This document shows positions 13,870 to 29,784 of a stretch of 29,784 nucleotides of DNA, one piece after another. Location of the stretch: contig MU270162.1 of the NCBI GenBank assembly GCA_021432635.1, positions 1 through 29,784 on the forward strand. Reading direction: 5' to 3'. Under the pieces are notes generated by a model. That model was not told the DNA's origin and ran no database searches. It saw only the letters and a list, made by a program, of their open reading frames with translations. The translations under genes were made by a program, and so were the position numbers. Numbering within the stretch: the stretch's first letter is position 1; each line of letters opens with the position of its first letter. The DNA comes from Thozetella sp. PMI_491 (lineage: Eukaryota > Ascomycota > Sordariomycetes > Chaetosphaeriales > Chaetosphaeriaceae).

Positions 13870-13966
13870 ACATTAAAAATTTAGGCTAATAAAAAGCAGT
13901 AAAACTATTATATATCTATAAGATTATATATCTATAGTAATTTATTATATGTCCCTAATAATTCCC
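13870..13966 (-). repeat. Right terminal inverted repeat of the MULE (97 bp)
   Basis: It is the reverse complement of 10543-10639 with five transitions. Read inward on the minus strand it begins GGGAATTATTAGGGACAT. It abuts the second TATATAAT. Confidence 0.93.
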
Positions 13967-13974
13967 TATATAAT
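13967..13974. repeat. Target site duplication of the MULE, right copy (TATATAAT)
   Basis: Exact copy of 10535-10542. The RT reading frame of element B continues immediately after it. Confidence 0.8.
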
Positions 13975-14290
13975 AAGTAGTTAAATAGCTATAAAATATT
14001 AGACTATATAATAATATTAAAAAGACTAAATATTATACTATTAGTATTAAGTTCCTAAGATTTATAATTACTATAAGAGGTCTTTATATAAACCCTAATA
14101 AGATAGTTATAGTTATAAACCAAAAGCTCTTTAAAAATATATATAAAATATACTCTTTTATTAGGTTTTATAACTTTTACTATTATTTTATATATAACTT
14201 TAATTATATTATAAAGCCTTTAATAAATCTAACTAAAACTAGTATATTATTTATATAGGAAAAATATTAATAGGATATATTTAATCAACT
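13975..14290 (+). pseudogene. Reverse transcriptase of element B, 3' part (thumb/connection)
   Basis: It resumes after the MULE. The conserved K-F-L-G-F-I block is visible at about 14055-14070 (Gly now Arg), followed by an I-N-P-x-K-I block (about 14090-14110) and an F-x-x-F-Y-N-F-Y-x-x-F-I block (about 14155-14200). This is the standard order of the Ty3/gypsy RT thumb and connection. The frame equals that of the 5' part. From 13990 onward it has a collinear copy in element D starting at 26512. The few bases next to the MULE have no counterpart there. Confidence 0.85.
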
Positions 14291-14299
14291 AAAATATAG

Positions 14300-14700
14300 C
14301 TTAACTAATACTTTTATTCTTAACTATTACTTGTTAATCACTAAGACTATATTAGAAATAAATACCTTTAATAACGTTTTAAGAGTAGTATTACTTTAGA
14401 GACACTTTAATTAAAGCTAGTATTTAATTAATTACTTCTTTAAGAAAATAATTAGTATTAAGACTAAATATTTAATCTAGGATAAAGAGTTACTAGTAGT
14501 AGTTTATATTTATAAGTATTAATAAGCTAAGCTTATAAGACTAATTATCCCTTTTATAATTATAACTAATTATAAAGCCCTTAAACACTTTATAACTAAG
14601 TGTCTCTTAAATAATAGATAAGTATATTAGGTTTAAAAACTATCTACTTATAACTATAAGATTACCTATCGACTAGACAAGTAAAATATCCTAGTTAATA
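14300..14700 (+). pseudogene. RNase H remnant of element B
   Basis: RNase H degrades the RNA strand during reverse transcription. The first block reads L-E-I-N-T-F-N-N-V-L near 14350-14385. The catalytic Asp codon is now AAT at 14361-14363, and the Glu before it remains GAA. Then come V-L-L-Q, an I-Q-D-K-E-L block (about 14475-14495, preserved), an I-I-T-N-Y-K-A-L block (about 14560-14590, Asp to Asn) and a Y-K-I-T-Y-R end (about 14650-14675) before N-I-L-V-N-T-L (about 14685-14710). All fit the Ty3/gypsy RNase H order. Stops are RIP-type. Confidence 0.87.
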
Positions 14701-14899
14701 CCCTGTTAAAAAAGTTAGAGCTTATTTATATAATAAGAGAATATTATAATTAAGAGTAAATTATAGAAATACTAGATCCTTAATAAATAGTCCTTATCTA
14801 TATAATCTCCTTACTTATTATTAAAATTATTATTATAAAACTATTAGATAATATATTATTAATAAATTAGATTCTATAGGTAAATTAAGCTATAAAAAG

Positions 14900-16090
14900 G
14901 AGTTAGTAATATATAGACTCCCTTAATTAGGGCTTTAAAATAGATCTTTTACTTTATAATAATCTTTTTATTATCTTAAACATATTAGGTTTAAATAGTA
15001 TACCCCTTTAGACTACTCTTATTAAGTAGGCCTATAAACCTAAGGTTAGTAGGTATTTAAGATATAATAAGACAAAAGAACTATTAAAAAGGCTATATTA
15101 TTAGCTATTATTAAACACTAATATAAGATAATATATTATAAACTATTAATCCTATTATTAAAGTAAGATCCTATATAATAAAACCCTTAGACTACTTTAA
15201 CTACTTCTTATCCTATTAATACTATAGTAAGATATTATAATTAATAGTAAGGATATATTTAAGGACTATATTAGGTATAACTATACTTAGGTTATTATAG
15301 ATTGCCTTAGTAAATACCCCTTTATACTCTTAAAGTATAAGGCTAATACTATTAAAGATATAGTAAAGCTGTTCTACACTTATATCTAATATATCTTTAA
15401 CTCTCCTAATACTATAGTCTTTAATTATAAACTATAGTTTGTCTTAGCCTTTATAGATAAGATATACTAGCTGATAAGTATAAAATAAAAACTTTTTACT
15501 ATTAATTATCCCTAGATAAATAACAACTCTAAAGTAGTAATATAATAGATTAATTAAAAGCTATATTATTATTATAGCTACTTTTAAGATAATTAGTTAA
15601 AGTATTTACTAGTATTAGACTTTATATAGGTAATTACTCTTTATATAAGTATTAAAGTAGCTCTTTATAAGATTAATATAAGGATAATACTAAAGCTATA
15701 CTATAATTAACATAAGTAAATAACTATTAAGTAAGGCTATACTAAGGATTTAATATAATTAAAGGCTTAGTAATTTATAAACTATACTTATAAAGTATAG
15801 AAATAAGTAAAGAAACGCCTAGTTATAATATAGGCTTATTAAAGCTACTAAGTTAATAAGTACTATTAAAAGCCTAATTTTAGGGTTAATAACTAAGCTT
15901 TTATCTCTATAAAGGGATAAAGCTTTAACTAGCCTAGTTTAAAGCTAGAGAAGTAGATAGATAGCCTGTTTAAGATTATAAAGGTATATAATAGTACTTA
16001 TATATTAGATCTTTTACTATCTTATAAAATACACCTAGTATTTAATATAAGCTAGTTATAAAAGGTATTAAACAACTTACTCCTAGGGTA
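14900..16090 (+). pseudogene. Integrase remnant of element B, D35E register intact
   Basis: The N-terminal zinc-binding part ends in a Cys-x2-Cys pair, both now TAT, at 15144-15146 and 15153-15155. The core follows with the block before the first catalytic Asp at about 15220-15250, then V-I-I-D-C-L-S-K-Y (about 15290-15320). The second catalytic Asp codon is now AAT at 15423-15425 and the catalytic Glu codon now AAA at 15531-15533. The last two are 36 codons apart, giving exactly 35 residues between them, the retroviral D35E spacing. The C-terminal part is basic and ends with an H-L-V-F-N-I-S type block (about 16030-16060), typical of Ty3/gypsy integrases. The protein is dead through stops and lost catalytic residues. 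Confidence 0.9.
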
Positions 16091-16136
16091 ATTATAGCTA
16101 AAGTTAAAGCTTAATATTATTAATAAAGAGTTTAAA

Positions 16137-16295
16137 TAAGAGGTTAACTACTTAAAGGTATTATATATCTATTATAAGAAACTAGAATATAAGGCTTAAT
16201 AGATAAGGTATAATCCTAATAATAAGTAGTATTATACCTTTAGCTTTTATAATATATTATAAATGATTTAATACTTTTATAAGGAATATCTAGAT
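16137..16295 (+). pseudogene. Chromodomain-like tail of element B integrase
   Basis: In the pol frame (codon 16140) a segment starts E-V-N-Y-L-K-V-L. It runs through a K-L-E-Y-K-A block and an I-R-Y-N-P-N-N-K block, then a Y-Y-T-F-S-F-Y-N block. The aromatic positions and the order match the chromodomains that fungal gypsy integrases use to target chromatin. Trp codons appear as TAG/TAA. Element D has a 20-bp deletion inside this domain. It could instead be an unrelated C-terminal extension, but the position supports the call. Confidence 0.7.
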
Positions 16296-17120
16296 ATTTT
16301 TAAACTATTAATAAAACTAAATAAGTAGCTTTAAGCTATTAGGGATAATTAATAGCTAGATAGCTCTAATTAGGATAATAAGCCTTATAAACTTAACACC
16401 TAGAAAAACCTCTACTAATAGCCTTACTTTTAGTAGATAATAACCCTAAGAGTTGCTAACTCTAGATTCTCTTATAATTTAACTATAATTTTAGAGTTAT
16501 AATCTTCTTAAGCCTTACCCTACCTAATAATTAGATAAAAATGCCTTTATTAAGAGAGATAGGGTTAATATTTTCTAACGCTTATCCTAAGAGTATATTA
16601 GTAGATATATTAGTATAGTGGTTTAGTTAATTATTTAGGGTTTTAGAGGTAAATACTAGGCTAGTGTTTGACGCTAGATATAGTTAAGAGTTTTTCCTTA
16701 TAGAATTATTCTTACTACTTTTTTAAATGTAAAAAGCTAGTTAAAATTACTGGTAATAGTAATAAGTTTTTTTATATATTTATCTTTAACTTTAAGGTTT
16801 TTTAGTGAGATAAATAAACCTTATATGCTCTGTAAATATTACTTTAAAGTTAAAAAGGATAGTATTTAAACTAATCTATAAGGGTAATCTCTAGGTATAT
16901 TGTTAAGCCTACTAAGAATACCCTTGTTAAGGTTAAGCTCTGCCTAGTAGGATTACTTATATAATTTAAAGGGATATAGATAGTAGCTAGCTTTCTTTTT
17001 ATATGGAAAAGAGAGGGTTAATATAGGAAAACCTTAGAGGATAAAGTATATACTTAGTGTTACCTGTATTAGTTTATTTTACTTTTTACCTTTTTTTTTT
17101 AGGGATGAAAAATAAGCTTT
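16296..17120 (+). other. Region between pol and the polypurine tract of element B
   Basis: About 830 bases follow the chromodomain. The first part (to about 16550) keeps plus-strand coding character and is probably the C-terminal tail of pol. Further on no domain was found on either strand, and I saw no antisense zinc-cluster pattern like that in element C. TpG is retained here (for example 16660-16680, 16750, 16820-16840) while CpA is rare. Element D preserves the whole stretch at 28800-29618 in more mutated form. Confidence 0.5.
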
Positions 17121-17130
17121 AAAAGGGGGG
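17121..17130 (+). promoter_or_regulatory. Polypurine tract of element B
   Basis: AAAAGGGGGG immediately precedes the 3' LTR. It would prime plus-strand DNA synthesis and fixes the element's orientation as plus. Element D has AAAAGATAGG at the same place. Confidence 0.88.
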
Positions 17131-17439
17131 TAGTATTATAGTTGTTAGCCTTAACTATAGATTAGACTATTTATTATAAGTATATAGATAAATAGATAGT
17201 TATAGCTATTTAGTAGCTGCTTAGTTATTAATCTTTATATAGCTATATATATTAAGATTATAGTAAGTAGAAAAGCTATAGATACTTAAAGGCCCTAGCT
17301 CCTTAGATATACCTCTAATTAAAGTTAGAGAGTAGCTATACTACCTTTTTCTCTTTAATCTTTATCTTAGAGTCTTTAATTACTTATTTAAAGTATAGTT
17401 AACCAGTCCTATTACTACCCTGTAAAGCTTGCTGTGATA
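17131..17439 (+). repeat. 3' LTR of element B (309 bp)
   Basis: Same length as the 5' LTR and collinear throughout. It keeps six TpG and one CpA, where the 5' copy has six CpA and no TpG. At each of those six TpG the 5' copy has TpA, and at each of the 5' copy's six CpA this copy has TpA. It ends GCTGTGATA and is followed by the ATTAT duplication. Confidence 0.93.
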
Positions 17440-17444: not shown

Positions 17445-17640
17445 AGTTAAAGCTTATAATAATATTATTTCTTTATAATTACTTTTTATTATAGCTTAAA
17501 GTATATCTTATAATTTTATTAATATTAGTTTTATTAATATATAGTTATTATTAGTAATACTTATAATTAAAAAAGTAGATCTTATAATAGCTTTATTAGT
17601 GTTATTATTAGTATTACTAATAATATATAGATTTATAGTT

Positions 17641-17712
17641 AATACTATAATAATAATAATATTAATAATATTAATAATATTAATAATAATAATAATATTA
17701 ATAATAATAGTT
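17641..17712. repeat. AAT/ATTAATA low-complexity tract
   Basis: Runs of TAA/TAATAT units with no interruption by G or C over about 60 bases. If read as protein it is poly-Asn/Ile-like. It may be a degraded ACN/AAC-type coding repeat or a simple microsatellite. Confidence 0.7.
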
Positions 17713-18764
17713 ATAACAGTAGTATTAAAAGTAATAATAGTAATAAACTAGCTAATAATTAGAAAAGTAAGTCCTTTACTAATATTAATAGTATTACTAA
17801 TAGTATTACTAATAATATTACTAATATATAAGCTAGTAGTTAGGGTAGTAATACCTACAAAAGTAGGTTTTTTACTAGCTCTTAATTTAAAACTTATAGT
17901 AAGGATATATTTAAAGTATCTAAGGCTTTTTTCTTTAATAGTATTAAGCTTATTACCTTTATTAATATTATAATTAAAGCTCTTATACTTTTTTTACTTA
18001 ATTACCTCCTCTTTTTTAAAGCTTTAATTATTCTTTTATTTTCCTAGTTAATATACCTTTCTTTTTACTTAACTATAAGCTTTACTTAAAGATAAAACTT
18101 TTTAACTTATAAAAAACTATCTCTTTTTTTCTTGTTATTATTTCTTTTTTTTTAATATCTTTAATATATTTTAATACTTTATCTTCTTTTTTCTCTTTAG
18201 CTTAACTAATTTAAGTCTTACTTATTAGATTAAATAATTTATATATTAGTATAATAAGACTACTTACTTTTTTTAATACTAATATATTTTTATATTTTTT
18301 CCTTTTTATAGATTATATTTTAGTTAGATAGTTAATAGTATTAATATAATAAGATAAAAAGGGTTTTTATTAGAATAATACTTTTCTAAATGTTTATACT
18401 TTATATAACTAGTTAAAAGTATTTATTTACTAGTTTCAGCTTATTTAAAGTAAGAATACCCTTTAATTAACTAACTTCTTAAGGTTTTTTATAAAGGTGT
18501 TTTATAGTAAAGCTTTAAATATTAAAAAAAGTATTTTAACCTTTCTTTAAAAGTTAAGATTAATATAAATAAGGGTTATATTATAATTAGCTTAAAGTAA
18601 AAAAGCTTTTTTTAATACCTTATTTTTATAATAGAGTTAAAGTATAAAAAAAAGCTTTTTTCTTTTTTTATTAGTAAGTACTTATAGCTTTAAAAGTAGT
18701 AGTTAACTCTAATATAATCTTACCTCTTTTTAGACTTTAATTAGATAAATAAGATAAGACTCTA

Positions 18765-19903: not shown

Positions 19904-19908
19904 CTATA
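19904..19908. repeat. Target site duplication of element C, left copy (CTATA)
   Basis: CTATA precedes the left LTR and recurs exactly at 26417-26421 after the right LTR. Confidence 0.85.
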
Positions 19909-20339
19909 TATTATAACACTAAAATCTTAAGGTTAGTATTCTTAATATATAAGGGATTTTTTCCTAAGATAGGAAGGGTAAAGACAAGTAGAGTATTAAT
20001 CAATTAATAGATGTAAAATCTAAAGTATAAGCTAAGGTAGCTTAAATAGATTAATTACTAAAGAGTAAAGGCTAACTAATCTATCTAGGTAAAGACTATA
20101 GTTTTATATATTAGGTTACTTTTTATAGCTTATCTACTCTAAGAAGCGCTAGTAATCTAGTTTACCTAATGATCTAGATTACTACTAAGCCTTTAGGGAG
20201 GTAATCCTTTCTTATTAGTAGAATATTTATATAAGTGCCTAAAGTATTTATTAAGGGTTTTACCTTTACTAACTATTAGGCTTAAACACTAAGCCTTATT
20301 AATAGTTATAAGGATATAGTTAATACTTTAATTATAATA
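19909..20339 (-). repeat. 3' LTR of element C (left copy, 431 bp)
   Basis: It aligns with 25986-26416 at the same length, with mostly transition differences. The outer ends read TATTATAA (left) and TTATAATA (right), against TTATCATAACA-like ends in the partner. This fits original TG...CA ends. It contains a perfect 10-bp inverted repeat, AGTAATCTAG (20151-20160) with CTAGATTACT (20174-20183), which is imperfect in the partner LTR. Confidence 0.93.
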
Positions 20340-20340
20340 T

Positions 20341-20354
20341 AAGCTCTCCCTTTT
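20341..20354 (-). promoter_or_regulatory. Polypurine tract of element C (minus strand)
   Basis: Read on the minus strand it is AAAAGGGAGAGCTT, adjoining the LTR. It confirms that element C points leftwards, in agreement with gag and pol. Confidence 0.82.
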
Positions 20355-20439: not shown

Positions 20440-21036
20440 TATTATTTTTAATAGGATATCTAGTCTTTTAGAGAAGCGAAAAATTATTTTAGGTAAGACT
20501 TATAAGTATTATTATTTAGTTAAATATATTAAGTAGTATAATATAAAAGTAATTATACTTTATATATATTGTTTTAATAAGAGGGTTAAATATATTATAT
20601 TATTATAGTTTTTAAAATATTTAAATTATATATATCTAGGGAAATTATATAATAGTTTTTTAATAGGGATAATATATAGGTTTAATATTTTATTATTTTA
20701 CTAACTTTAGCTAATAGGTGTTTTTTAGTTTTATATAATATAATAGAGTTAAAAAAGATAAAAGAAGAGGAAGAAGAGATATAATATTATATATTTAAGG
20801 CCTTAGCTAAGTTAAAACAACTATATTAGTAAAAATATCTTCTTTAGGCTAGGGGTAAAAAGTTATTTAATTATAAGATAATTAGTTTAAAAAAGGATAA
20901 CACTAGGGAGATATTTTTTAAGTAGTATATAATAAGTAAGGTTTAGTCCTTTAAAGCTTTAAAGGTAATTAATTAAAAGGCAATAGGTTTTAACTTAGTA
21001 TTAGTTAATTAAGGTTTTAATAGTAAAACTATTAAA
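20440..21036 (+). pseudogene. Antisense ORF remnant in element C with a Zn2Cys6-like cluster
   Basis: On the plus strand, opposite to gag-pol, six codons fall at 20561, 20570, 20591, 20618, 20627 and 20648. That is C-x2-C-x6-C-x8-C-x2-C-x6-C, the spacing of fungal Zn2Cys6 binuclear clusters. The second is still TGT, and the other five are TAT, one G-to-A step from TGT. The basic Asn-Lys-Arg-Val-Lys stretch before the third position suits such a domain. Further on, in another frame (codon 20746), come five Glu in a row, then a Lys/Leu/Gln-rich probable helix, an A-R-G-K-K-L-F block and an I-I-S-L block (about 20746-20910). I recall similar cysteine-cluster plus helix proteins as hypothetical proteins in fungal genomes. 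A frameshift between about 20660 and 20740 links the parts. The end is near the pol stop, so the genes converge. Confidence 0.65.
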
Positions 21037-21039
21037 TAA

Positions 21040-21180
21040 ACTCCTATAAATTCTCTAGGTGTTTACTAAGTTCCCACATATTTTTACTAGTATTATATCT
21101 TATCTACTTAACTAAATACTCTAATCTATCTTTAATATTATAAAAATCTATAACTTTCTCAACTTTATATTCTAGTTATT
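21040..21180 (-). pseudogene. Chromodomain of element C integrase
   Basis: The minus-strand translation gives the chromodomain order clearly. First is an E-Y-K-V-E-K-V-I-D block, then a D-R-L-E-Y-L-V-K block with a TAG at the Trp position, then an I-R-Y-N block. It closes with N-M-W-E-L-S-K-H-L-E-N, where the Trp codon TGG (complement of 21074-21076) has survived. Chromodomains bind methylated histone H3 and steer integration into heterochromatin in chromoviruses. It shares the pol frame and ends the polyprotein, tail to tail with the antisense ORF. Length and motifs are normal, and confidence is higher than for element B. Confidence 0.88.
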
Positions 21181-22539: not shown

Positions 22540-22880
22540 CTAGTCCCTTTTTATATATAATTTTAAAATCAAATTCTAAGAGAAATTTAGTCTATCTAAT
22601 TTATTATTTATTAAGCTTTTTATTAGTTATAAAATAAGTAAGGTTTTTATAGTTTATATAAATAATAACTTAGTGTTATACTTTATAAAGATAAACCTTT
22701 TATTCTTTAAGGGCTTTAATAATAGCTATTAGTTCTTTATTATATATCTAGTAATTAATTTCTACTTTTTTAAGCTTTTTTAAGAAGAAGATAACTAGGT
22801 GTAATAGTTTTTTTTTATTGTATTATTTAAGTTATCCTTTTATTATAAAGTCTAAAGAGTTAGTTTTAACTTTATATAGT
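22540..22880 (-). pseudogene. RNase H remnant of element C
   Basis: The minus-strand translation shows F-F-x-K-K-L (about 22785-22810), E-I-N-Y-x-I-Y-N-K-E-L-I-A-I-I-K-A-L (about 22700-22770), an I-N-Y-K-N-L-T-Y-F block where Asp has become Asn (about 22630-22675), and an R-Q-T-K-F-L-L-E-F-D-F-K-I block (about 22560-22605). This is the canonical order of the Ty3/gypsy RNase H, with many residues unchanged. The frame is shared with RT and integrase. Trp, His and Gln positions are the ones lost, as RIP predicts. Confidence 0.92.
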
Positions 22881-23850
22881 TTTACTAGGTTTAAGAATAT
22901 AAGTATAGGTTTACTTAAGATTTATAACTTAATAGTTTTAAAGGCTTTACTAGCTTAATTATTTTACTTAAACTTAATCTCCTTATAGGTAAGCTTAGTA
23001 AGTAATAGGGTAAGTTTACTATAACTTTTTATAAAGTAGTGGTAATAATTAGTAAATCTAAGAAAATCTTATACTTCTTTTATTATTTTTAATAGTAGCT
23101 AGTCTTATATTACTACTACTTTTTTAGGGTTTATTTTAATAAATCTAGGGGTAATTTTAAATCTTAAAAAGATAGTTTTTTTAGTGTAATATTATATTAG
23201 TTATTAATAATAAAAATATAAGTAAATAGTCTTAAGTTTAAACTAGTAGCTATTATAAAAGTCTTTATTTTTAGGTTGTCTTATTAACTTTTTATAAGTA
23301 ACGTCTATTGTTTTTTATCTAGTTTTATCCTAAGGTTAGCTATAAGTATTAATTTTTATTTATAAGTTATAGCTTATATTATATAAGGTTTTTAAGCTAG
23401 GGCTTAAGTCTTATATTAATAAATTACTTTTATATATATTCTATAGCTTTAATTTATTCCTTTATAGTTTTTATTTATAAATTAATAAGGTCTTTTCTTA
23501 TAAGAGTATATCCTTATACTTTTCCTTAGTATTATTATATAGTTTTCTCTAAATAATAGTATAGGTATATTATTAAAATATATTATATTATATTTAGCTT
23601 GTTTTTATAATATATTAAAAACTAGGGGTTTAGCTTAAAGGTAGCCTATTTATTATATTAGTCTTTTATTTCTTAATACTTTGTTTTTTCTTATAAGTAT
23701 AGGTTATTAATTTACTATGTCTTATACCTAATAGAAAAGAAATTATACTTTAGTTTATCTATAATATATGTTTTATATAGTATAATATATTATATCTAGG
23801 TAATTTCTTTATAGTATTTATACTAAGGGCTTATTTAAGAATTATCTTAA
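22880..23850 (-). pseudogene. Reverse transcriptase remnant of element C
   Basis: The thumb/connection part is clear on the minus strand. It has F-L-R-F-K-I-T-P-R-F-I-K-I-N-P-K-K-V (about 23120-23175), then D-F-L-R-F-T-N-Y-Y (about 23045-23075) and F-I-K-S-Y-S-K-L-T (about 23010-23035). All are in the frame shared with RNase H, integrase and chromodomain. Upstream, from 23180 to about 23850, palm and finger motifs should lie. I could not place Y-x-D-D or the other blocks with confidence, although the distance from the zinc knuckle is normal. Frameshifts or heavier mutation are the likely reason. Confidence 0.75.
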
Positions 23851-25985: not shown

Positions 25986-26416
25986 TATTATAATATTAAG
26001 ATCTTAAGGTTAGTATTCTTAATATATAGGAGATTTTTTCCTAAGGTAGAAAGGGTAGAGATAAGTAAAGTATTAATTAACTAATAGGTATAGAATCTAG
26101 AGTATAAGCTAAAGTAGCTTAAATAAATTAATTATTAAAGAGTAAAGGCTAACTAATCTATTTAGGTAGAGACTATAGTCTTATATACTAGGTTGCTCTT
26201 TATAGCTTATTTATTCTAAGAAGCGCTAGTGATCTAGTTTACCTAGTAATCTAGATTGCTGCTAAGCCTTTAAAGAGGTAATCCTTTCTTATTAGTAAAA
26301 TATCTATATAGGTACCTAAGGCATTTATTAGGGGTTTTACCCTTACTAACTACTAGGCTTAAGTACTAAGCCTTATTAACGGTTATAGGGATGTGGCTAA
26401 TACCTTAATCATAACA
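25986..26416 (-). repeat. 5' LTR of element C (right copy, 431 bp)
   Basis: It aligns with 19909-20339. This copy retains more G and some TpG/CpA at its right end (AACGG, GATGTGG, ATCATAACA at about 26380-26416). Read on the minus strand it starts TGTTATGATTAAGG, a normal TG start. It would hold the element promoter and transcription start. Confidence 0.93.
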
Positions 26417-26421
26417 CTATA
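26417..26421. repeat. Target site duplication of element C, right copy (CTATA)
   Basis: Exact copy of 19904-19908. Confidence 0.85.
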
Positions 26422-26511
26422 CTAGGTAAAAAGAAAAATCTACTAACTACCCTTAGCTTAATATAAGCTTATATCTAAATAGTAAAACTATATAATTAAG
26501 TATTAATTCTT
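26422..26511. other. Short unassigned stretch between elements C and D
   Basis: About 90 bases that do not align with element B upstream of the element D breakpoint. They were joined to 19903 before element C inserted, so they belong to whatever occupies 19590-19903. Confidence 0.5.
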
Positions 26512-27240
26512 TAAAATATTAAACTATATAATAATATTAAAAAGATTAAGTATTATATTATTAATATTAAGTTTCTTAGATTTATAATTATTATAAGAGG
26601 TTTTTATATAGACTTTAATAAAATAATTATAATTATAAACTAGAAACTTTTTAAAAATATATATATAATATACTCTTTTATTAAGTTTTATAACTTTTAC
26701 TATTATTTTATATATAACTTTAATTATATTATAAAGCCCTTAATAAATCTAATTAAGATTAATATATTATTTATATAAGAAAAGTATTAATAAAATATAT
26801 TTAATTAGTTAAAATATACCTTAATTAATACTTTTACCCTTAGTTATTACTTATTAATTACTAAGACTATATTAAAAGTAAATATCTTTAATAATATTTT
26901 AAAAGTAATATTATTTTAAAGATACTTTAATTAAAACTAGTATTTAATTAGTTACTTTTTTAAGAAGATAATTAGTGTTAAAACTAGATATTTAATCTAG
27001 GATAAAGAGTTACTAGTAATAGTTTATACTTATAAGTATTAATATATTAAACTTATAAGATAAATTTTTTTTATAATTATAATTATATATAAAGCTTTTA
27101 AGTACTTTATAATTAAGTATCTCTTAAATAATAAATAAATATATTAAGTTTAAAAATTATCTACTTATAACTATAAGATTATTTATTAATTAAATAAGTA
27201 AAATATCTTAGTTAATACTTTATTAAAAAATTTAAAGCTT
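26512..27240 (+). pseudogene. RT end and RNase H remnant of element D
   Basis: Aligns with 13990-14710 of element B without obvious indels. The RT K-F-L block and I-N-x-x-K-I block are near 26570-26630. RNase H with the preserved I-Q-D-K-E-L type block (TAG for Gln) is near 27000-27015. The RNase H catalytic block around 26880 reads L-K-V-N-I-F-N-N, so the Glu retained in B is also lost here. RIP-type stops are more frequent than in B. Confidence 0.85.
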
Positions 27241-27419
27241 ATTTATATAATAAGAGAATATTATAATTAAGAGTAAACTATAAAAATATTAAACCCTTAA
27301 TAAGTAGTTTTTATTTATATAATCTCCTCTCTTATTATTAAAGTTATGATTATAAAACTATTAGATAATTTATTATTAATAAATTAAATCTTATAAGTAA
27401 ATTAAGCTATAAAATAATA

Positions 27420-28620
27420 TTAATAATATATAAACTCCTTTAATTAAGGTTTTAAAATAAATCTTTTACTTTATAATAATCTCTTTATTATTTTAAATAT
27501 ATTAGGTTTAAATAATATACCCCTTTAAACTATCCTTATTAAATAAGCTTATAAGCTTAAAATTAATAGGTATTTAAGATATAATAAAATAAAAGAACTA
27601 TTAAAAAGATTATATTATTAGTTATTACTAGGTATTAATATAAGATAATATATTATAATCTATTAATCTTATTATTAGAGTAAGATTTTATATAATAAAA
27701 CCCTTAGATTACTCTAACTACTATTTATCTTATTAATATTATAGTAAGATATTATAATTAATAATAAAGATATATTTAAGGATTATATTAGGTATAATTA
27801 TACCTAGGTTATTATAAATTACTTTAATAAATATCTCTTTATATTTTTAAAGTATAAAATAAATATAACTAAAGATATAGTAAAGCTATTTTATATTTAT
27901 ATTTAATATATTTTTAACTTTTTTAATATTATAATCTCTAATTATAAACTATACTTTATCTTAGCCTTTATAAATAAAATATACTAGTTAATAAGTATAA
28001 AGTAAAAGATCTTTATTATTAATTATTCCTAGATAAATAATAACTTTAAAGTAATAATATAATAGATTAATTAAAAACTATATTATTATTATAGCTACTT
28101 TTAAGATAACTAATTAAAGTACTTATTAGTATTAGACTTTATATAAGTAACTACTTTTTATATAAGTATTAGAATAACTCTTTCTAAGATTAATATAAGG
28201 ATAATATTAAAGCTATATTATAATTAATATAAGTAGATAATTATTAAGTAAGGCTATACTAAGGATTTAATATAATTAAAGGCTTAAAAGTTTATTAACT
28301 ATACTTATAAAGTATAAAAATAAGTAAAGAAATATCTAGTTATAATATAAGCTTATTAAAGTTATTAAGTTAATAAGTATTATTAAAAGCCTAATTTTAA
28401 CATTAATAACTAAGTCTTTATCTTTATAAAGAGATAAAGCTTTAACTAGCCTAGTTTAAAGCTAGAAAAGTAGATAAATAATCTGTTTAAGATTATAAAG
28501 ATATATAATAATACTTATATATTAGATTTTTTATTATCTTATAAAATATACTTAGTATTTAATATAAGCTAGTTATAAAAGGTATTAAATAACTTACTTT
28601 TAAAGTAGTTATAATTAAAA
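27420..28620 (+). pseudogene. Integrase remnant of element D
   Basis: Collinear with 14900-16090. The second catalytic Asp codon is now AAT at 27940-27942 and the catalytic Glu codon now AAA at 28048-28050, again exactly 36 codons apart. The zinc-binding Cys codons align with those of B and are also lost. The conserved alignment without indels makes this pair a good source for measuring transition types. Confidence 0.85.
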
Positions 28621-28649
28621 ATAAATCTTAATATTATTAATAAAAAGGT

Positions 28650-28790
28650 TAAATAAAAGGTTAACTATTTATAAAAAACTACAATATAAACCTTAATAAG
28701 TAAGATATAATACTAATAATAAATATTATTATATCTTTAGCTTTTATAATATATTATAAATAATTTAATACTTTTATAAAGAGTATTTAA
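28650..28790 (+). pseudogene. Chromodomain remnant of element D with a 20-bp deletion
   Basis: Aligned with element B, the 20 bases at 16154-16173 are missing at the junction 28670/28671, so the first third of the domain is lost and the frame shifts. The remaining part still shows the Y-N-x-N-N-K and F-Y-N blocks. This is one of few indels between the two copies. Confidence 0.7.
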
Positions 28791-29618
28791 ATACTTTTAA
28801 ATCACTAGTAGAACTAAATAAATAACTTTAAGCTACTAAGAATAATTAATAACTAGATAGTTTTAATTAAGATAATAAGCCTTAAAAACTTAATACTTAG
28901 AAAAACCCTTATTAACAGCCTTATTTTTAATAAATAATAATCTTAAAGGTTACTAACTTTAAATTCTCTTATAATTTAATTATAATCTTAGAGTTATAAT
29001 CTTATTAAGCCTTACCCTACTTAATAATTAAATTAAAAACACCTTTATTAAAAGAGGTAGGGTTAATATTTTTTAGTAGTCTCCTTAAAAATATATTAAT
29101 AAATATATTAATAAAATAGTCTAGTTAATTATTTAAGGTTTTAAAGGTAAATACTAGGCTAATATTTAACTCTAGATATAGTTAAGAGTTTTTCCTTATA
29201 AAATTATTCCTATTATCTTTTTAAATATAAAAAGCTAATTAAAATTACTAGTAATAATAATAAATTCCCTTATATATCTATCTTTAATTTTAAGGTTTTA
29301 TAATAAGATAAATAAACTCTATATACTTTATAAATATTATTTTAAAGCTAAAAAAATTAATATCTAAACTAATTTATAAGAGTAACCTTTAGGTATATTA
29401 TTAAGTCTATTAAAAATATCCTTATTAAGGTTAAGCTTTACTTAATAAGATTACTTATATAACCTAAAGAGATATAAATAATAGCTAACTTTCTTTTTAT
29501 ATAGAAAAAAAGGGTTAATATAAAAAAGTCTTAAAGAATAAAATATATACTTAGTATTACTTATATTAGTTTACTTTACTTTTTATCTTCTTTTTTTTAA
29601 AGATAAAAAATAAGCTTT

Positions 29619-29628
29619 AAAAGATAGG
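29619..29628 (+). promoter_or_regulatory. Polypurine tract of element D
   Basis: AAAAGATAGG directly before the LTR, the mutated counterpart of the AAAAGGGGGG of element B. The single T is a transversion relative to B, which RIP does not explain. Confidence 0.78.
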
Positions 29629-29784
29629 TAGTATTATAACTATTGGCTTTAACTATAGATTAAACTATTTATTATAAGCTATATAAATAAGTAGATAGTT
29701 ATAACTACCTAATAATTACTTAGCTATTAATCTTTATATAGTTATATATTAAGACTATAAATAATAAAAGAGTTATAAGTGCTT
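29629..29784 (+). repeat. 3' LTR of element D, first 156 bp
   Basis: It begins TAGTATTATAACTATTGGC, matching the start of the 3' LTR of element B, and remains collinear to the window end, where about half of the LTR is cut off. Confidence 0.88.

Follow-up and report, generated by a model that had tools for sequence, protein, structure and literature searches.

A Zn2Cys6-like antisense gene co-varies with a segment of the long terminal repeat in a fungal chromovirus

Genes in antisense orientation between pol and the 3' long terminal repeat (LTR) of retrotransposons have been described before, and in the available portions of two accounts their function is called unknown and regulation is suspected (PMC7264820, PMC11963269). 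A fungal example is brtn, which Boty-like Ty3/gypsy elements of Botrytis cinerea and Sclerotinia carry in antisense (as related in PMC7264820), while in plants the antisense open reading frames (ORFs) of Retand, Grande (gene23) and RIRE2 have the same place and orientation, with predicted DNA binding or nuclear location and a proposed regulatory role (PMC11963269, PMC7264820). In human T-cell leukaemia virus (HTLV), the antisense HBZ/APH, which is expressed from the 3' LTR and has a spliced form, lowers LTR-driven sense transcription (PMC10186651). Here, we describe such a gene in element C, a minus-strand LTR element of the fungus Thozetella sp. PMI_491 that lies within a 29,784-nucleotide stretch of DNA (contig MU270162.1, C147 in our numbering; hereafter the window). 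Like brtn, the gene is an extra one in a fungal Ty3/gypsy element, read in antisense and placed between pol and 3' LTR, although this likeness is one of description rather than of sequence and the accessible part of the source mentions no LTR co-variation for brtn (PMC7264820). Nor do the parts of the papers at hand describe a paired LTR segment for the ORFs of the plant elements, which differ in their domain (TRP28) and hosts (PMC11963269, PMC7264820), or family-specific LTR sites for HBZ, a basic leucine zipper (bZIP) protein with CREB-2 among its interaction partners (PMC10186651). Antisense genes in fungal Ty3/gypsy elements are thus already known, on the evidence of Boty brtn, and the coupling to an LTR segment is the addition made here. 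We found no account that pairs an antisense regulator with part of an LTR, or that describes a Zn2Cys6 antisense gene of a retrotransposon, in the open full-text literature, subscription papers being outside the scope of the search. As set out below, the gene probably encodes a DNA-binding regulator co-adapted with a segment of U3, and of the possible signs of regulation autorepression fits best.

The copies analyzed come from one genome of 72.3 Mb in 157 contigs, in which a first search gave 48 matches and one with the pol tail 83, the latter including pieces of one and the same copy and being analyzed as a subset. We aligned 62 copies (63 regions minus L023, a duplicate identical to L024) and compared them over the LTR, the antisense gene and the pol tail. 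Although the elements are otherwise similar, their antisense genes form four families of 17, 22, 13 and 3 copies (families 1 to 4, 55 copies) and one singleton, L046, and transversion-type differences between families amount to 18-25% in the first part of the gene and 19-36% in the second. These families were defined from the gene region, and unsupervised clustering of the gene columns returned the same four groups (54 copies). No family was given to L030, L040, L042, L043, L046, L049 and L063, among which only L046 has a readable segment, and L066 has a family but an unreadable segment.

In all 54 copies compared (17 from family 1, 22 from family 2, 12 from family 3 and 3 from family 4), the type of a short variable segment of U3, whose limits in the window (20131-20214) were set by the anchors chosen, is that of the antisense-gene family. 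When coded as purines and pyrimidines (R/Y), the segment differs by at most 0.077 within families and by at least 0.198 between them. The two hold-out copies with a readable segment, L074 and L075, agree, their segments being at a distance of 0.000 from those of families 4 and 2, to which their genes belong by reading; L070 and L071 yielded no segment, and none was obtained from L073, intended as the 5' LTR of the L050 element. The singleton L046 combines a fifth gene type with a fifth segment type.

The DNA around and between the two variable parts is largely shared. Counted in 40-bp bins, families 1, 3 and 4 diverge from one another almost exclusively within two blocks, at about 20131-20220 and 20461-20980; the second corresponds to the coding sequence (20456-20946), and every other bin holds 0 to 3 sites. 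In the R/TATA block of the LTR (80 to 82 columns), no transversion is fixed between families, and only 0 to 3 are seen among families 1, 3 and 4 in the 231 to 235 columns of distal U3, polypurine tract (PPT) and leader that separate segment from gene, the PPT-to-ATG stretch being almost unchanged in these families. When family 2 is involved, the same intervening DNA differs at 13 to 17 of 233 to 237 sites. The pol tail of 15 family-1 and 7 family-2 copies has no fixed transversions in its first 447 columns, with 6 shared and 14 other polymorphisms, while the antisense gene has 85 fixed in 482. On the other side, at least two U5-side LTR haplotypes, a and b (19981-20060 in the window and related loci), are spread across the gene families (family 1, 10 a and 7 b; family 2, 11 a, 10 b and 1 unclear; family 3, 6 a, 5 b and 1 unclear; family 4, 3 a), which is a sign of recombination between elements. 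What is observed is co-variation, on a shared backbone, of a putative regulator with a candidate control site, a role suggested for the segment by its position and its repeats.

Such linkage could arise without function if U3 and a 3'-terminal gene merely traveled together in reverse transcription, both of them fast-evolving or old and neither contacting the other. In reverse transcription, the inherited U3 is that of the 3' LTR, so a gene beside the 3' LTR stays with its sites; the genomic RNA carries both at its 3' end, and because U5 comes from the 5' end, U5 shuffling alone needs no selection. The divergence of family 2 between the blocks also agrees with this explanation, which we nevertheless regard as rather unlikely. 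A neutral association should break when the DNA in the middle and on both sides is homogenized, as it is between the blocks in families 1, 3 and 4 and in the adjoining pol of families 1 and 2, and the gene is selected as a protein. Because middle and edges are homogenized, we argue that mixed pairs have been lost by selection.

Repeat-induced point mutation (RIP) is confined to C-to-T and G-to-A changes, so purine/pyrimidine coding is blind to it. We therefore made R/Y-coded comparisons for six family pairs and two coding parts, and in all 12 of these codon position 3 was the most variable, with position 2 the least variable in 11. With both parts pooled, families 1 and 2 differ at 45 of 147 third positions versus 41 of 296 first and second positions (Fisher p 3.4e-5), and families 3 and 4 at 58 of 146 versus 72 of 292 (Fisher p 9.3e-4). 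Since position 3 varies most throughout, the antisense frame was under protein-level selection, and the aligned copies show the ORF to be a conserved coding sequence. The earlier note on this DNA had supposed a captured or long-associated gene, and long association is borne out by the four families and the singleton, with 25-51% of position-3 sites differing by transversion between families. These results also bear on the possibility that the effect comes from the antisense RNA, which would silence gag-pol by way of double-stranded RNA and leave the protein a secondary role. The gene, on the plus strand, does converge on the minus-strand gag-pol, as that note had pointed out, and such a role has been discussed for antisense RNAs of LTR elements in the part of PMC7264820 available. 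Selection on the frame as protein, the six conserved cysteines and a coding part that stops at 20946, ahead of the start of the chromodomain at 21026, make this very unlikely.

The earlier picture of a single antisense ORF needs correction. Both parts are under selection, but the cysteine part and the coiled-coil-like part lie in different frames in 37 of 55 copies, including L050 and L052, and share one in the other 18 (1/17 in family 1, 9/22 in family 2, 8/13 in family 3 and 0/3 in family 4). In the window copy, the Glu run and the ARGKKLF motif reported earlier are indeed present, in the frame of 20440, but the cysteine cluster is in the frame of 20441. Between the parts is a spacer of ~50 bp in which the 55 copies have 48 indel runs, 47 of them not multiples of three, whereas part one has 3 runs and part two has 7. 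Neither L050 nor L052 has an early start codon in part two, and in L046 and L074 the two halves share one frame, stops aside. We infer that an intron separates the two parts in at least some families. The start codon is ATG in 15 of 55 copies and ATA in 40, including the window copy. Part two ends with a TAG at 20944-20946, a position shared by the copies of families 1 and 2 examined; in family 3, the column aligned with the L050 stop is not TAG-like, so the gene end may differ there. On the minus strand, L050 also has a 137-codon stop-free stretch without ATG (385-795) opposite the cysteine part, probably a by-product of the antisense frame.

The six-cysteine cluster was noticed because, opposite gag-pol and between the chromodomain and the PPT, six TAT or TGT codons at 20561-20650 (+) fit C-x2-C-x6-C-x8-C-x2-C-x6-C exactly, which we confirm. 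The window copy translates there, in the frame of 20441, as Y-IY-C-FNKRVK-Y-IILL*FLK-Y-LN-Y-IYLGKL-Y. This strict spacing occurs, on either strand, in 0.2% of 2000 dinucleotide shuffles of 20440-21036, and a looser Zn2Cys6 spacing in 2.4%. The strict pattern is found three times in the whole 29.8-kb window, the other two inside a trinucleotide microsatellite (17635-17745), whose minus strand imitates the cluster spacing. Taken alone, the window is suggestive and gives modest support for a spacing beyond chance; it is the genome copies that decide. A less mutated copy, of the kind that the earlier note proposed to look for, does exist in the same genome: L050, with ~50% GC, is a natural copy that looks hardly mutated, its antisense frame is open over the cluster, and it has TGT at all six places, reading MSSPLEKRKTISGKTRERHRLAEYIEQYGVEAAMPCTRCFNKGVKCIVSLRSSKCLNCVRLGKPCDGSLVG. 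This supports the six ancestral residues being cysteines rather than tyrosines.

The spacing is conserved among the copies, with 50 of the 62 aligned keeping the full pattern in TGT, TGC, TAT or TAC codons only, and the middle spacing being x8 in 39 of these and x9, that of family 3, in 11. Cysteine codons are found, from the first place to the sixth, in 3, 15, 9, 10, 7 and 5 of these 50 copies. In the 12 copies without the full pattern, the region is truncated or unlike (L030, L040, L042, L046 and L049, where L046 has a related cluster with x7 spacing), partly N (L043) or replaced at its start (L063), or else the pattern is broken by a single changed codon (L011, L041, L064) or a one-base indel (L022, L066). 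The six places keep the Y-R-Y class in 53 to 55 of the 55 family members, and across the four families R/Y classes are conserved in 6/6 cysteine codons versus 19/69 other codons (p 0.0009). L030, L040, L042 and L049 have a related pol tail next to which truncated or unlike DNA replaces the antisense gene wholly or partly.

Is the product a Zn2Cys6 protein, as had been proposed? Clusters of this type range over C-x2-C-x6-C-x5..12-C-x2-C-x6..8-C, and the antisense protein has the six cysteines. The top Pfam match of part one of L050 is Zn_clus (PF00172), with E 0.0066 and 17 bits, which is under the curated cut-off of 21, and L052 has no match to PF00172. A PDB sequence search returned a single match, Leu3, at E 4.7. 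The single-sequence model of the protein is weak, with a predicted local distance difference test score (pLDDT) of 59 overall and 72-77 at residues 41-60 within the cluster, and displays short helices; in Foldseek, 10 of the 11 matches of this weak model are Zn2Cys6 domains (Ppr1, Pho7, Leu3, Gal4, Put3), all with E >1, the best being Ppr1 at 1.5 Å over 31 columns. The protein is thus like Gal4-type factors in its cysteine spacing, in the short helices of the weak model and, by sequence reading, in the coiled-coil-like part that follows the cluster, and unlike them in showing no middle domain, in scoring below the Pfam cut-off and in being encoded by a retrotransposon. We call it Zn2Cys6-like, not a certified member. 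For part two of L050, Pfam returned PHM7_cyt alone (E 0.036, below the cut-off), which we take as a chance match. With such weak Pfam and fold matches, the cluster might instead be a nucleic-acid-binding knuckle that serves packaging or integration rather than transcription, but the spacing and these same matches favor Zn2Cys6, and a knuckle would leave the pairing with a promoter-side LTR segment unexplained, which makes this an improbable alternative.

Of the matches to the antisense protein in the genome, a single one, at E 0.06, clearly lies outside the element copies: a host gene with a typical Zn2Cys6 domain of 41 bits (L069, C89:124400-127200). This is an ordinary Zn2Cys6 factor and does not establish the supposed capture of a host gene. 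Protein-database searches gave 3781 candidates with the mutated alignment, none at E 0.01 or better, and 3 with part one of L050 and 39 with part two, none at E 10, in collections that may hold few fungal sequences. The same may apply to the viral contigs (16 pattern matches, 0 confirmed) and to the genome-contig collection (213 pattern matches, 0 confirmed).

Both TATA-like boxes have the variable segment upstream of them, at a distance of 21-104 bp for the sense box and 162-245 bp for the antisense box. The segment is enriched in repeated 6-mers in all five copies tried, relative to shuffles (L050, 11 versus 2.3, p 0.0005; L041, 17 versus 2.0, and L060, 13 versus 1.1, 0/2000 each; L052 and L068, p 0.02). 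The simplest reading of a DNA-binding-like protein that co-varies with promoter-side repeats is that of a regulator and the sites it acts on. The antisense gene would encode a small DNA-binding regulator with a Zn2Cys6-like cluster at its N-terminal end and a coiled-coil-like part at its C-terminal end, the two possibly joined via splicing. Its transcription would start from a promoter between the PPT and the ATG or within the adjoining LTR. The most likely target of the protein is the variable U3 segment, which is present in both LTRs, directly upstream of the gag-pol TATA-like box and also upstream of the antisense gene itself. Gene and segment would form a co-adapted pair, kept together while the surrounding and intervening DNA is exchanged. 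DNA binding, target, sign, splicing and expression are all inferred, and three points weigh against this reading: adjacency of gene and U3 accounts for part of the linkage without function, family 2 has diverged between the two blocks, and the Zn2Cys6 evidence is weak, with Pfam under its cut-off and no fold match at E 1 or below.

As to sign, the chief rival is private activation, in which the antisense protein would switch on gag-pol from LTRs of its own type. The segment is where an activator would sit, close upstream of the sense TATA-like box, and most characterized Zn2Cys6 proteins activate; the reason for coexisting specificities would then be less obvious, unless privacy denies non-autonomous copies any profit, and we rate this possibility as unlikely, if the strongest of the alternatives. 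We prefer an autorepressor, since resident copies would then fail to repress a rare new specificity, and several types could coexist on one backbone, each with type-specific immunity. Lambdoid phages offer a parallel, as in their immunity regions the repressor gene and its operators form one module that varies as a unit while the recombining backbone is shared; they differ in being bacteriophages with unrelated proteins and in that repression has been demonstrated for them, while for element C it is surmised. In its fullest form, which we put forward only tentatively, the repressor reading would be one of heteroimmunity, in which the antisense repressor and its cognate U3 operators are an exchangeable module, each type limiting its own copy number, and at least five types on one recombining backbone ignore one another. 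The target is here suggested by the sequences themselves, in which a short part of the LTR varies along with the gene and the DNA around that part stays nearly constant. If the protein represses, it would be a self-encoded, type-specific copy control with phage-like logic in an LTR retrotransposon, and this would explain why the gene adjoins the 3' LTR, the one that hands on its U3.

Element C itself (Table 1) has an LTR pair with 87.7% identity over 432 columns, flanked by the target-site duplication (TSD) CTATA at 19904-19908 and 26417-26421. Together with the PPT, the RNase H domain and the C-terminal chromodomain, these features make it a chromovirus, that is, a Ty3/gypsy element with a chromodomain. 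In the mutated window copy, the chromodomain scores 23.1 bits, slightly under the cut-off of 25.1, and the pieces searched gave no Pfam match to reverse transcriptase or integrase. The window is very AT-rich (12-27% GC) and looks mutated by RIP.

Table 1. Positions in the window of the features of element C and its antisense gene
Feature	Position	Strand	Basis or remark
Variable LTR (U3) segment, family-1 type, proposed regulator-binding region	20131..20214	.	type corresponds to gene family
Variable segment copy, 5' LTR	26208..26291	.	75/84 bases identical to 3' copy, 0 transversions
TATA-like box of antisense gene, between PPT and start codon	20376..20384	+	TATAAGTAG
Antisense gene, coding part one	20456..20680	+	alignment of copies; selection tests
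Six-cysteine cluster, Zn2Cys6-like	20561..20650	+	codons at 20561, 20570, 20591, 20618, 20627, 20648
Intron-like spacer (limits approximate)	20681..20727	+	indel clustering
Antisense gene, coding part two, Glu/Lys-rich, coiled-coil-like	20728..20946	+	alignment of copies; selection tests
3' LTR of element C	19909..20339	-	paired with 25986-26416; edges from TSD reading
5' LTR of element C	25986..26416	-	LTR pairing and TSD
TATA-like box, sense (gag-pol) promoter, 3' LTR	20104..20110	-	sequence reading
TATA-like box, sense promoter, 5' LTR copy	26181-26187	-	sequence reading
Polypurine tract-like run adjoining 3' LTR	20343..20354	-	sequence reading
Chromodomain, end of pol	21026..21169	-	Pfam PF00385, E 7.1e-5
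RNase H domain of pol, matched in two frames	22571..22957	-	Pfam PF17919 and PF17917

Outside element C, the window contains a second repeat pair, at 13966-17280 and 26488-29777, with 85.6% identity over 3.3 kb. Elsewhere in the genome, L013 (C25:820300-824800) holds two family-1 copies on opposite strands, their antisense regions ~1.2 kb apart. The identical cassette regions of L023 (C132:57200-60000) and L024 (C25:1-2400) are on two contigs, one of them at a contig start, and represent either a duplicated stretch or an assembly duplicate.
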